A DNA stretch of 64,000 nt from Hydrogenophaga aromaticivorans (GTDB lineage Bacteria > Pseudomonadota > Gammaproteobacteria > Burkholderiales > Burkholderiaceae_C): contig NZ_VYGV01000025.1 of assembly GCF_013387465.1 (NCBI RefSeq), forward strand, positions 1 through 64,000, in the 5' to 3' direction. The translations under genes were made by a program, and so were the position numbers. The notes beneath the pieces were generated by a model. That model saw only the letters and a program-made list of their open reading frames with translations. It had not been told where the DNA came from and searched no databases. Positions 16,056 through 55,181 of this stretch are shown piece by piece. Position 1 is the first letter of the stretch. Each line of letters begins with the position of its first letter.

Positions 16056-16071
16056 AGCAATATGCGGGCCA
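16056..16071 (-). promoter_or_regulatory. Sigma-54 (-24/-12) promoter of the pedF-like operon
   Basis: Read on the minus strand, TGGCCCGCATATTGCT matches the consensus TGGCACG-N4-TTGCT at all but one key base, with GG and GC ten bases apart. The predicted start site would leave a leader of about 30 bases. Confidence 0.78.
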
Positions 16072-16136
16072 CCGACACCGGATGCCTTGAAATCCTTGGA
16101 CAGGCGGCCATCCAGCGCGAACGCGCCGGGCACGGG

Positions 16137-16153
16137 TGTTCCAATTTGAATCA
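16137..16153 (+). promoter_or_regulatory. Candidate upstream activator site
   Basis: TGTTCCAATTTGAATCA, an imperfect palindrome about 67 bases upstream of the pedF -24 element. A related 17-mer (14 of 17 identical) occurs at 35284-35300 before the PQQ dehydrogenase. Confidence 0.45.
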
Positions 16154-16338
16154 TTTGCGCCTCATCGGACCGGCGCGCTGTCACAGACTGGCATTCAAAA
16201 GCACCCGCCAGTGGCACCCAGGTGGCTGCACCCGGTGGCGGGTTAATTGCTATGTCTCACAAAGAGGCAGTCGGTACAACATGTTTCATACCGGGAATAC
16301 CCAGTGTTGATTCATGGGACAGATATGAAGAGAATCAC

Positions 16339-18504
16339 ATGCACCAAGACCAACAAGACACAGACGAGACAACACCCCTCCTGACCCCACGCGATGCGCC
16401 CTGGGCCATGGACTATTGGGGGGGATTTCCGCCCGACCCTGGAGACGACATGAGTGCAGGCATCCACACGCGCCCAGACGAAGGACGCGTCGGGGCTGCG
16501 CCAGCTGGCGCCTCCCCGAACCCCGACCTGATCGGCCAATCCCACCGGCGTTCGCAGGCCTATGGCATCACGGCGCAGGCCGAACCCGACTTCTCCAGCC
16601 CCTCGCGTGGCGTGTTGAACGACGCGCTGGACGAAAACCGCTTTCTCTTCCAGCACGCCGCCCCCGTGATGGAGACGCTGTACGACCAGATCGTCAACAC
16701 CCACAGCATGGTGCTGCTGACCTCGGCACGCGGCATGGTGCTGCACTCGCTGGGCGACACCGATTTTCTGGAAAAAGCTTCGCGCGTGGCGCTCACGCCT
16801 GGTATGGACTGGTCCGAGCAGACCAAGGGCACCAACGCCATCGGCACCGCGCTGACCGAAGAAGAAGCGCTCACGGTGCACGGCAACCAGCACTACCTGA
16901 ACGCCAACAAGTTCCTCACCTGCTCCGCCGCACCCATCTTCGACCCCTACGGCCAGGTCATCGGCGCGCTCGACGTCACGGGTGACCACCGCAGCTTCCA
17001 CCAGCACACGCTGGCGCTGGTGCGCATGTCGGCACAGATGATCGAGAACCACATGTTCGCCGACATCTTCCCGAAGGCGATCCGCATCCACTTCCACACC
17101 CGCTCCGAGTTCCTGGGCACGCTGGTCGAAGGCATCGCGGTGTTTTCGCCCGAGGGGCGTTTCATCTCGGCCAACCGCAGCGGGCAGTTCCAGATCGGCC
17201 TGCCCTTCGCGGCGCTCAAGGCCCACACCTTTTCTTCGCTGTTCGGCATCCCGATCTCGGCGCTGTTCGAGCTGTTCAGCGGCGCCATGCCCAATCCCAA
17301 GCAGCTGGTGCTGCACAACGGTGTTTCGGTGTGGTGCCGCGTCAAGGTCAAGACGGCCCATCCCTGGTCGGCGACCCGGCCGGACGCGCCCCAGGGACAG
17401 CAGGCCTTCACCGCGGAAACGGGTCAGGGCGTGGCAGCGCACGCGCCGGCCAAACCCCCGGTCAAGAAGATGCAGCTTTCGTCGCTGCAATACCTGGACA
17501 CCGGTGATCCCCAGGTGTCGTCGGTCATCCACAAGTTGCGCATGGTGTCGGGCAAGGACATCCCGGTCATGATCCTGGGTGAAACCGGCACCGGCAAGGA
17601 CCTGCTGGCGCAGGCCATCCATGGTGACTCGGACCGATCCGGCCAGCCCTTCGTGTCGGTCAACTGCGCGTCGATACCCGAGACCCTGATCGAGTCCGAG
17701 CTGTTCGGCTACGAAGAAGGCGCCTTCACCGGCGCGCGCAAGAAGGGCGCCATCGGCAAGATCCTGCAGGCCCATGGCGGCACGCTGTTCCTTGACGAAA
17801 TCGGTGACATGCCCAAACACCTGCAGGCGCGGCTGCTGCGCGTGCTGCAGGAGCGCCGGGTCAGCCCGCTGGGCGCGGGCAAAGAAGTCGACGTGGACGT
17901 GGCCGTGGTCTGCGCCACGCACAAGAACATCAAGGACATGATCGCGCGCGGCGACTTCCGCGAAGACCTCTACTACCGGCTCAACGGCCTGGTGGTGCGA
18001 CTGCCGGCGCTGCGTGAGCGCACCGACTTCGAACTCGTCGTGCGAAAGATCCTCAAGGCCCTGTGCGAGAACGGCGAGCAGATCGGCATCTCGCCCGAGG
18101 TCATGAACATCTTCAAGCGCTACCACTGGCCGGGCAACTTCCGCCAGCTGCACAACCTGATGCGGACCGCCGTGGTCATGGTGGGCTGCCAAGGCGTGAT
18201 CGAACTGAGCCATCTGCCCGACGATTTCCTGGAAGAGCTGGAGCACGGCCTGCCCAACCCGATCCCGTCGCGCCTGATGGGATCGATCGGCCCGGCCCAG
18301 CCGCTGCCCGACGAGCCCAACACCGCCCCGATGCCCGAGCCAGCGGCGCCCGAGGGCAGTCGCCTGGAAGACGTGGCACTGAACGCCATGGCGCAGATGC
18401 TGCGGCTGCACAAGGGCAACGTGTCGGCCGCGGCCAAGGCGCTGGGTGTCTCGCGCAACACCATTTATCGCAAGAAGGACTTGCTGCCGCCGGATGTCTT
18501 GTGA
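16339..18504 (+). CDS. Sigma-54-dependent activator, GAF-AAA+-Fis (AcoR family)
   Basis: A 721-aa activator. The AcoR-type GAF sensor covers about residues 100-260 ('DWSEQTKGTNAIGTAL', 'GALDVTGDHRSFHQH'). A PAS-like segment follows (about 270-345, 'GIAVFSPEGRFISANRSG'). The AAA+ domain has Walker A 'GETGTGKD', the sigma-54 contact loop 'GAFTGARKKG' and Walker B 'GGTLFLDEIGDMP'. The C-terminal Fis helix-turn-helix is 'GNVSAAAKALGVSRNTIYRKK'. I chose ATG 16339, which has a purine-rich ribosome site; the frame is open up to 16222. It sits within the PQQ region beside several -24/-12 promoters and is their likely activator. The ligand, perhaps an alcohol or aldehyde, is unknown. Confidence 0.92.
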   Translation: MHQDQQDTDETTPLLTPRDAPWAMDYWGGFPPDPGDDMSAGIHTRPDEGRVGAAPAGASPNPDLIGQSHRRSQAYGITAQAEPDFSSPSRGVLNDALDENRFLFQHAAPVMETLYDQIVNTHSMVLLTSARGMVLHSLGDTDFLEKASRVALTPGMDWSEQTKGTNAIGTALTEEEALTVHGNQHYLNANKFLTCSAAPIFDPYGQVIGALDVTGDHRSFHQHTLALVRMSAQMIENHMFADIFPKAIRIHFHTRSEFLGTLVEGIAVFSPEGRFISANRSGQFQIGLPFAALKAHTFSSLFGIPISALFELFSGAMPNPKQLVLHNGVSVWCRVKVKTAHPWSATRPDAPQGQQAFTAETGQGVAAHAPAKPPVKKMQLSSLQYLDTGDPQVSSVIHKLRMVSGKDIPVMILGETGTGKDLLAQAIHGDSDRSGQPFVSVNCASIPETLIESELFGYEEGAFTGARKKGAIGKILQAHGGTLFLDEIGDMPKHLQARLLRVLQERRVSPLGAGKEVDVDVAVVCATHKNIKDMIARGDFREDLYYRLNGLVVRLPALRERTDFELVVRKILKALCENGEQIGISPEVMNIFKRYHWPGNFRQLHNLMRTAVVMVGCQGVIELSHLPDDFLEELEHGLPNPIPSRLMGSIGPAQPLPDEPNTAPMPEPAAPEGSRLEDVALNAMAQMLRLHKGNVSAAAKALGVSRNTIYRKKDLLPPDVL

Positions 18505-18523
18505 CTTCCAGCGCTGATGACAG

Positions 18524-53505: not shown

Positions 53506-53532
53506 GACTTGTCTCCTTGTTCCGAAAGCCAA

Positions 53533-53560
53533 AAAGGGGAGCCGTTGCCAGCTCCCCTTT
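53533..53560 (-). terminator. Hairpin between aldehyde dehydrogenase and DUF779 genes
   Basis: AAAGGGGAGC and GCTCCCCTTT form a 10-bp stem with eight bases of loop. On the minus strand five T follow, so it may stop part of the transcripts. Confidence 0.75.
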
Positions 53561-53583
53561 GATCTCACTTCAATCCGGACGGA

Positions 53584-55104
53584 TCAGAAAAATCCCAGCT
53601 TGTTTTCCGAGTAGGAAACGAGCAGGTTCTTCGTCTGCTGGTAGTGGTCGAGCATCATCTTGTGGGTTTCGCGGCCGATGCCCGATTCCTTGTAACCACC
53701 GAACGCAGCGTGTGCCGGGTAGGCGTGGTAGCAGTTGGTCCACACACGGCCCGCCTTGATCGCGCGGCCCATGCGGTAGGCCACGTTGCCGTTGCGGCTC
53801 CACACCCCGGCGCCCAGGCCGTACAGCGTGTCGTTGGCGATTTCGAGGGCTTCGGCTTCGTCCTTGAAGGTGGTCACGGCCAGCACGGGGCCAAAGATTT
53901 CTTCCTGGAAGATGCGCATCTTGTTGTGGCCCTTGAACAGCGTGGGCTGCACGTAGTAGCCGCCTTCCAGATCACCACCCAGGTGGGCTTGTCCACCGCC
54001 GGCCAGCACTTCAGCGCCTTCTTCCTTGCCCAGTTCCAGGTACGACAGGATCTTGGTCAGTTGCTCTTTGGAAGCCTGCGCGCCCATCATGCTGTCGGTG
54101 TCCAGCGGGTTGGCGTGTTTGATGGCGGCGACGCGCTTCAGGACGCGCTCCATGAACTTGTCGTAGATGGACTCTTGAATCAGCGCACGGCTCGGGCAGG
54201 TGCAGACCTCACCCTGGTTGAACGCGAACAGCACCAGGCCTTCGACGGCCTTGTCGAGGAAGGCGTCGTCCTTGTCCATGATGTCGGCGAAGAACACGTT
54301 GGGCGACTTGCCGCCGAGTTCCAGCGTCGCCGGGATCAGGTTGTTGGCAGCGGCCTGGGCGATCACGCGGCCCGTGGTGGTGGAGCCCGTGAAGGCGATC
54401 TTGGCGATGCGCTTGCTCGTGGCCAGCGGCATGCCGGCTTCACGGCCGTAACCGTTGACGATGTTCAGCACGCCCGGGGGCAGCAGGTCGGCGATCAGCT
54501 CGGCCAGGATCAGGATCGAGATCGGGGTGGACTCTGCCGGCTTGAGCACCACGCAGTTGCCCGCGCCGATGGCCGGGGCCAGTTTCCACGCCGCCATCAG
54601 GATGGGGAAGTTCCAGGGAATGATCTGGCCGACCACGCCCAGCGGTTCCTGGATGTGGTACGCCATGGTGTTCTCGTCGATTTCGCTGACGCCACCTTCC
54701 TGCGCGCGCACGCAGCCCGCGAAATAGCGGAAATGGTCGACGGTCAGCGGGATGTCGGCGTTGAGCGTTTCGCGGATCGCCTTGCCGTTGTCCACGGTCT
54801 CGGCGTAGGCCAGCAGCTCCAGGTTCTGCTCGATGCGGTCGGCGATCTTCAGCAGGAGGTTGGAGCGCGTGGCGGCGTCGGTCTTGCCCCACTTGTCGGC
54901 GGCGGCGTGGGCGGCGTCGAGCGCGAGTTCGATGTCTTCGGCGGTGGAGCGCGCGGCCTGCGTGTAGACCTGGCCGCTCACGGGCGTGATCACGTCAAAG
55001 TACTGGCCCTTGCACGGCACGACCCACTTGCCGCCAATGAAGTTGTCGTAACGGGGCTTGTAGGCGATCTTGGCGCCGGCGACGCCTGGGGCTGCGTAAA
55101 TCAT
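53584..55104 (-). CDS. NAD+-dependent aldehyde dehydrogenase (AldB/ExaC type)
   Basis: A 506-aa enzyme of normal length. NAD site '[16 protein letters not shown]' (about residue 235), catalytic Glu in '[13 protein letters not shown]' (about residue 260) and catalytic Cys in '[16 protein letters not shown]' (about residue 299). The family oxidises acetaldehyde and other aldehydes made by PQQ alcohol dehydrogenases (ExaC, AcoD, AldB). It is paired with DUF779, as is usual. A -24/-12-like site lies about 62-77 bases upstream. Confidence 0.93.
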
Positions 55105-55165
55105 GTTTGTCGTCCTCTGGGATGGTGGATAAAAAGTGAATCGCCCGATGGGCTGCCTTCATCAC

Positions 55166-55181
55166 CACAACTTCCGTGCCA
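55166..55181 (-). promoter_or_regulatory. Sigma-54-like promoter of the aldehyde dehydrogenase
   Basis: On the minus strand, TGGCACGGAAGTTGTG. The -24 part is a perfect match; the -12 core is GT rather than GC. The first twelve bases are almost the same as in the PQQ dehydrogenase promoter. An 11-base palindrome, CTCAAATTGAG, is at 55196-55206. Confidence 0.55.

Follow-up and report, generated by a model that had tools for sequence, protein, structure and literature searches.

Conserved -24/-12 promoters point to a probable sigma-54 regulon for periplasmic alcohol oxidation in Hydrogenophaga

The first 64 kb of contig C27 in the 5.63-Mb genome of Hydrogenophaga aromaticivorans (the whole stretch analyzed here, referred to as the window) carries a near-complete pyrroloquinoline quinone (PQQ) alcohol oxidation system, as determined by Pfam and NCBIfam scans. 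We consider it likely, at a probability of roughly 0.7, that genes in the window form a sigma-54 regulon through which Hydrogenophaga controls periplasmic alcohol oxidation, with an AcoR-like activator encoded beside the cytochrome gene pedF. The initial annotation had proposed that the scattered PQQ operons share sigma-54 promoters, and a shared regulon is now supported by three lines of evidence: the conservation of the promoters across genera, a palindrome common to the dehydrogenase and pedF promoters, and a conserved neighboring activator, which we infer to drive all six promoters. The sequences are probably best read as a sigma-54 regulon, specific to this lineage, that serves a lanthanide-type alcohol oxidation system. 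The genome encodes one RpoN, identified via its activator-interacting domain.

All six -24/-12 elements of the initial annotation were found with the ten-base spacing (GG-N10-GC in four and GG-N10-GT in two), on the correct strand and in the correct place, 42 to 116 nt ahead of a start codon (Table 1). The distance from the -12 element to the start codon is 42 nt for pedF, 86 nt for pqqA as computed (the ATG is truly one base closer to the promoter), 116 nt for the dehydrogenase, 75 nt for the beta-propeller operon, 80 nt for the TonB receptor, and 62 nt for exaC. The GT at -12 described for the receptor and exaC was seen in both. Elements were compared to the consensus TGGCAC-N5-TTGC, with GG at -24 and GC at -12, and were scored with a weight matrix whose weights were preset and not fitted to these data. 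Across both strands of the window, the four highest matrix scores belong to the sites of the beta-propeller operon, pqqA, the dehydrogenase, and the receptor, while the pedF site ranks 8th and the exaC site 14th. A site scoring at least 12.4 was present in all 6 named zones, compared to 1 of 24 other gene-start zones; the chance of such a site is ~0.007 per zone of 125 positions. Genome-wide, the exact consensus occurs 28 times, versus 9 for a reversed control, and two of the 28 lie in the window. The comparison with shuffled sequence that the initial annotation had suggested showed a mild excess for the matrix (14 sites of at least 12.4, compared to 7.5 ± 2.6 in 60 shuffles, and 5 of at least 15, compared to 1.0 ± 1.1) but none for a loose consensus, the counts for which are given below. 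Match counts in the window alone are weak evidence; the signal lies in position and, above all, in conservation across genomes.

Conservation was assessed in a family sample of 120 genomes (about one per genus), in loci of the genus, and in named dehydrogenase loci (the best 80 of 410). A site was counted at a score of at least 11 in the named dehydrogenase loci, at least 12 in the family and genus pedF sets, and above the shuffled 95% level (10.5 to 11.4) in the other family sets. The best 30 loci were taken for the dehydrogenase (of 35 matches), the receptor (of 69), pqqB in the genus (of 34), and exaC, for which 57 of the 120 genomes lie above the NF050026 cutoff. Most locus sets include the window's own locus, and the 80 named loci share genomes with the family sample, which makes the sets nonindependent. 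The pedF set comprised 29 loci from 28 genomes, three homologs of 39 to 42% identity having been excluded as paralogs, and the genus pedF set left out 6 of 30 stretches without an identifiable pedF. Contig edges excluded 3 of the 80 named dehydrogenase loci, 2 of 30 pqqB loci, 1 of 30 dehydrogenase loci, 1 of 30 beta-propeller loci, and 1 of 27 receptor loci; three matches indexed beyond a contig end (one each for the dehydrogenase, exaC, and SoxYZ) were artifacts and were also excluded.

The dehydrogenase site is kept in 75 of the 77 scorable named loci, which come from Hydrogenophaga, Polaromonas, Rhodoferax, Limnohabitans, Malikia, Comamonas, Methylibium, Caldimonas, Azohydromonas, Sphaerotilus, Aquabacterium, and other genera. 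The two loci without it belong to Noviherbaspirillum, where the gene lies closely behind a same-strand open reading frame. In the family sample, the site is present in 24 of 25 orthologs of at least 68% identity (the window and one congener included) and is above the shuffled 95% level in 26 of 29 loci once four less similar homologs are added, two of which have it. The pedF site reaches 12 in 26 of the 29 family loci (28 other genomes), compared to 15 of 236 control genes, and in 21 of 25 genus loci. In one of the three family loci that miss it (L088), pedF follows the dehydrogenase gene on the same strand, and the dehydrogenase there has a strong promoter (L203). The exaC site was found in 25 of the best 30 family loci, window included. 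The remaining promoters are conserved over a shorter range. The beta-propeller site is present in all six loci of at least 60% identity (window included) and in 3 of 23 less similar loci, and the pqqA site is present in 29 of 30 genus loci. At the receptor, the form TGGCAY-N5-TTGT is found in 14 of 16 genus orthologs of at least 68% identity, window included, which indicates that the GT variant, though weaker, is conserved at this promoter. The predicted promoters are conserved at all six positions, with conservation at pqqA and the receptor largely confined to the genus; the core of the putative regulon (dehydrogenase, pedF, and exaC) is wide, and its other predicted members are local to the genus or to near relatives.

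Expectation maximization on 22 dehydrogenase promoters from outside the genus yielded a palindrome of about TGTTCNA-N4-TNGAACA. The original motif run had started with two own-genus sequences, which were afterwards excluded, and relearning the motif from random starts in the 22 outside-genus sequences only gave the same numbers. A tally of exact gapped palindromes found none, but the expectation-maximization motif did emerge. This independent motif, for which 230 control upstream regions set a 95% level of 10.29, scores 18.8 and 18.0 at the dehydrogenase and pedF promoters of the window; its maximum at the 26 other exact consensus sites of the genome is 11.0, with 2 above the control level. 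Across the family, it exceeds the control level at 20 of 29 pedF sites (P = 1.3e-12), 6 of 30 exaC sites (P = 1.1e-7), and 2 of 6 beta-propeller sites. Within the genus, 21 of 25 loci have their top-scoring pedF palindrome 48 to 85 nt ahead of the -24 box. A combined motif, built from the dehydrogenase and pedF sets outside the genus, scores 12.4 at the beta-propeller operon, 11.1 at exaC, 10.0 at the receptor, and 4.7 at pqqA in the window. None of 77,948 background positions in the genome reaches its dehydrogenase or pedF score, and at the 26 other exact consensus sites its maximum is 10.8, with 4 above the level of 9.99. Within the window, the dehydrogenase and pedF promoters have a clear palindrome; it is plausible at the beta-propeller operon and indistinguishable from background at exaC and the receptor.

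The candidate activator has a GAFTGA loop at residue 500. The initial annotation had called it the only full sigma-54 activator of the window, and a genome-wide domain search agrees, returning no other sigma-54 activator domain there. It scored under the cutoff in all 25 NCBIfam families shown (of 28), and because no regulator cutoff was reached, we do not call it AcoR or DhaR. The gene is divergent from pedF and within 900 nt of it in 25 of the 29 family loci; three of the other four have the activator elsewhere in the stretch, and one is at a contig end. In the genus, the divergent pair is present in all 25 scorable loci, window included. Outside the family, 12 of the 276 genomes of the rest of the class carry a PedF above the cutoff. 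Two of these 12 loci score at least 12, and only L323 does so at a promoter-like distance; within the 1.5 kb taken on each side, which misses remoter activators, L323 is also the only one of the 12 with an activator homolog alongside, and L329 has a weak match to a GAF-Fis protein.

In the regulon that we propose, the activator would use its GAF/PAS region to detect an alcohol or aldehyde, bind the palindromes upstream of its targets, and spend ATP to open RNA polymerase-sigma-54 at the -24/-12 promoters. Its targets would be pedF, the pqq operon, the PedH-like dehydrogenase, the PQQ-associated ATP-binding cassette (ABC)/SoxYZ operon, the PqqU-like receptor, and exaC, so that cofactor synthesis, probable cofactor uptake, the enzyme, the electron acceptor, and aldehyde removal would rise together. 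We infer the reach of the activator to promoters other than those of the dehydrogenase and pedF.

Table 1. Coordinates of the genes, promoter elements, and palindromic sites of the putative regulon in the window
Feature	Coordinates	Strand	Basis or remark
pedF-type cytochrome c550	15517..16014	-	TIGR04494, 203 bits vs cutoff 122
pedF -24/-12 element TGGCCCGCATATTGCT	16056..16071	-	GC at -12; poor -24 box TGGCCC
Palindromic enhancer-like site, pedF	16136..16153		Rank 3 in window, independent motif; conserved in genus
AcoR-like sigma-54 activator, candidate regulon activator	16222..18504	+	GAF-PAS-AAA+-Fis helix-turn-helix (HTH) by Pfam
Candidate distal enhancer site	20190..20207		Rank 4 in window; ~590 nt upstream of pqqA promoter
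pqq operon -24/-12 element TGGCATCGATATTGCT	20781..20796	+	GC at -12
pqqA, 24 aa	20881..20955	+	Read off sequence; precedes pqqB
pqqB, pqqC, pqqE	21045..24246	+	Pfam domain and order; pqqD expected between
PQQ alcohol dehydrogenase, D-x-D metal motif (lanthanide type)	33316..35037	-	TIGR03075, 757 bits
Dehydrogenase -24/-12 element TGGCACAGAAGTTGCC	35153..35168	-	Exact consensus
Palindromic enhancer-like site, dehydrogenase	35283..35300		Rank 1 in window, independent motif
Beta-propeller, ABC binding protein, PedC-type permease, SoxYZ-like carrier	44741..48679	-	TIGR03866, TIGR03863, TIGR03861, TIGR04557, each above cutoff
Beta-propeller operon -24/-12 element TGGCACCTTTTTTGCA	48754..48769	-	Exact consensus
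Possible enhancer-like site, beta-propeller operon	48874..48891		12.4 combined motif; 9.8 independent motif
TonB receptor related to PqqU	50868..52967	-	NF041535, 608.6 bits; PDB 9c4o
TonB receptor -24/-12 element TGGCATAAAACTTGTA	53047..53062	-	GT at -12
Possible enhancer-like site, receptor	53070..53087		Weak in window: 10.0 combined, 7.2 independent motif
Acetaldehyde dehydrogenase exaC	53584..55104	-	NF050026, 945.9 bits vs cutoff 900
exaC -24/-12 element TGGCACGGAAGTTGTG	55166..55181	-	GT at -12

The PDB chains nearest to the dehydrogenase are 6zcv and 6zcw, which we take to be PedH of Pseudomonas putida. An Asp two residues past the catalytic Asp (D-x-D) marks the lanthanide-type PQQ dehydrogenases; the window enzyme reads WDYDG at this position, compared to WDFDG in 6zcv and 6zcw and WDFSG in 1flg, with Ser at the second place. 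The second Asp is kept in all 80 named orthologs, and by this motif the dehydrogenase is classified as PedH-like and of the lanthanide type. It is 88 to 98% identical to its Hydrogenophaga orthologs, with an identical copy in one betaproteobacterial assembly. The receptor matches the PQQ transporter structure 9c4o with an E value of 2.5e-144 but falls short of the NF041535 cutoff of 1,200 bits, and it is therefore named PqqU-like only. By its score, the product of exaC is assigned to NF050026. Further window members are a PQQ-associated ABC ATPase and a metallohydrolase that scores under the cutoff of its own family.

The most serious alternative, to which we give somewhat less than an even chance, is that the promoters are sigma-54 dependent and answer to several activators, the one in the window serving pedF and the dehydrogenase and others serving exaC, pqqA, the receptor, or the ABC operon. 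The sigma-54 activator domain has 16 strong matches in the genome, and one of these, which lies next to a flavin monooxygenase-like gene, is AcoR-like in its sensor region as well. This second AcoR-like protein (C25:61447-61926) is 30% identical to the window activator over 243 aa of the GAF part, 48% in the AAA+ domain, and 51% over 31 aa of the HTH, and is a candidate activator for some of the promoters. Moreover, 16 of the 30 scored exaC loci come from genomes without a PedF above the cutoff, and 13 of these 16 retain the exaC site, which in those genomes must depend on another activator. The palindromes that fit exaC best on its own also differ in detail, so its assignment to the window activator is not secure. 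Only at the dehydrogenase and pedF is the independent palindrome prominent: it stays under 10.29 in the window at the beta-propeller operon (9.8), exaC (8.4), the receptor (7.2), and pqqA (5.8), exceeds that level at none of the 9 family pqqA sites, and passes at no more of the family exaC sites than the 6 of 30 given above. Along with the number of activators and the likeness of the second one, these scores weigh against the regulon that we propose, as do several other observations. The pqqA and receptor sites are present in only 9 of 28 and 5 of 30 family loci, respectively, and the pedF site is below 12 in 4 of 25 genus loci. The second-best palindrome match of the window (6905-6922) lies upstream of a nitronate monooxygenase gene, with no known target and no sigma-54 site at 6905 among those scored in the window. 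The loose consensus scan of the window gave 100 matches, compared to 114.6 expected from shuffles.

Other results speak for a single activator and against a division among several. A related palindrome (score of at least 10.0) lies 25 to 37 nt ahead of the -24 box of the receptor in 13 of the 14 genus loci with the promoter, and the combined motif is enriched at exaC across the family (14 of 30; P = 8.3e-10). At pqqA, a related palindrome is the top match within 1,000 nt upstream in all 30 genus loci, at -546 to -613, inside an opposite-strand hydrolase gene in the window. A broader proposal is that one pedF-linked activator defines a sigma-54 regulon in Burkholderiaceae sensu lato that couples PQQ synthesis, probable import, and use for the lanthanide-type dehydrogenase, with the Hydrogenophaga pqq operon switched from an enhancer ~550 to 610 nt away inside the hydrolase coding sequence. 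We offer it tentatively and regard it as somewhat doubtful. The excess of synonymous conservation at the distal site ranks only 42nd among 375 six-codon windows, and one genus locus (L367) has lost the -24/-12 element yet keeps a strong distal match (18.4). Both observations favor coding constraint or another role for the distal site, and coding constraint could account for part or all of its conservation.

The direct regulators of ped control in Pseudomonas, AgmR included, are of the LuxR type. A second alternative, which we judge improbable, is that a two-component pathway as in Pseudomonas is the main control of the window genes, with the activator a minor input and sigma-54 a boost. A hybrid histidine kinase with a MASE3 domain is encoded downstream of the dehydrogenase (29701-32103, - strand), and control of this kind is described for the Pseudomonas ped clusters (PMC12997753, PMC6115532). 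However, no LuxR-type regulator was found among the 55 window proteins scanned for domains (the rest of the genome was not searched), and the near-invariant -24/-12 elements across many genera argue for the main promoter. In P. putida, CbrAB is described as the primary module of ped control, CbrB being a sigma-54-dependent response regulator, and a hybrid kinase and AgmR form a second tier (PMC12997753); PedS2/PedR2 is described as a two-component switch (PMC6115532). The ped/exa systems of Pseudomonas resemble the window in their PQQ dehydrogenases, cytochrome c550, SoxYZ-like carrier, aldehyde dehydrogenase, and pqq genes. They differ in that direct control runs via two-component and hybrid-kinase pathways and AgmR, and the accessible portion of that account names no sigma-54 promoters of structural genes (PMC12997753). 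The initial annotation had suggested that the wiring here would be different from LuxR-type control. The arrangement extends a wiring already suggested for AcoR and exaC in Ralstonia, and sigma-54 is not absent from Pseudomonas, where CbrB stands in the top tier of ped control.

The closest described precedent is Ralstonia solanacearum, in which growth on ethanol is reported to require rpoN1 and an AcoR homolog encoded beside exaC is predicted to regulate it (PMC4676750). The likeness lies in an AcoR-like sigma-54 activator with exaC as a predicted target. The Ralstonia protein is beside exaC, whereas the Hydrogenophaga activator is paired with pedF, and exaC is the only stated, predicted target in the portion of that source available, to which the putative window set adds the dehydrogenase, pedF, pqqA, ABC/SoxYZ, and the receptor. 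BmoR of Thauera butanivorans is described as an alcohol-responsive sigma-54 activator with an inverted repeat (PMC8899819, PMC6366067). It offers a parallel in the placement of that repeat upstream of a -24/-12 promoter and differs in that it controls the promoter of a butane monooxygenase. PqqU of Escherichia coli was described in 2025 as a TonB-dependent PQQ importer, and in four Burkholderiales genomes PqqU is reported to be syntenic with pqq genes, with coregulation suggested (PMC12124388). The window receptor is related to it, though under the NF041535 cutoff, and the available part of that report names no regulator. If the regulon is real, it would suggest a mechanism for the coregulation of PQQ import and biosynthesis in some Burkholderiales.

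Alcohol oxidation of the PQQ and lanthanide type has mostly been described from Pseudomonas and methylotrophs, under two-component regulators. A real regulon would mean that, across a large environmental family, an activator probably gated by a ligand has come to control the same enzyme set, and the analysis names candidate promoter, enhancer, and activator sites. Our literature search found no title or abstract opening on sigma-54 promoters of a PQQ dehydrogenase, pedF, or pqqA in the family, although it covered subscription journals little and the absence is unproven. The comparisons support, as the new element, an extension of AcoR-type sigma-54 control to a whole PQQ-dependent, lanthanide-type alcohol oxidation system.

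That the elements are chance matches in GC-rich DNA and form no regulon is very unlikely: window-wide consensus counts are no higher than those of shuffles and several of the look-alikes are copies of an interspersed repeat that inflate consensus scans, but the conservation of the sites at similar distances despite variable spacer letters already contradicts it, and the contrast between named and other gene-start zones and the palindrome common to the dehydrogenase and pedF also count against it. The interspersed inverted repeat, with GGAACCGGCTTTGCCGGGCC, was located at 14339-14530, 18562-18607, 26213, and 43598 of the window.

Two further sites were considered and set aside. The aldehyde oxidoreductase operon was rejected as a regulon member, as the zone ahead of its first gene (ferredoxin) scores only 5.4; at the four family loci, scoring was done ahead of the oxidoreductase gene, not the ferredoxin gene. 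A site ahead of a truncated regulator (13044; score, 14.6) scores 2.3 in the sole congener scored.

In other genera, a beta-lactamase-fold gene whose product is 30 to 41% identical to PqqB carries an element of its own, [CA]GGCAY-N5-TTGC, at 9 of 10 loci (L060, L063, L064, L069, L071, L073, L075, L077, and L082). At several loci, this gene sits between the activator and the ABC ATPase and beta-propeller genes, and the ABC operon may come under sigma-54 there via a different first gene.

Several neighboring genes were also noted. The second AcoR-like activator, in contig C25 of the same genome (L434, 5028-7019), adjoins an integrase-type gene in addition to the flavin monooxygenase-like gene. 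A GAF-PAS-Fis protein is encoded at 13107-14225 (+ strand) of the window, divergent from the aldehyde oxidoreductase operon. No AAA+ domain was detected in it, making it an unlikely sigma-54 activator; it could be a repressor or competitor, and a 70% homolog lies near exaC in a congener. The aldehyde ferredoxin oxidoreductase and its ferredoxin-type subunit are encoded at 10527-12882 (- strand). A molybdate/tungstate-like ABC transporter lies at 57785-60327 (+ strand), with a ModE-like regulator at 55336-56139.

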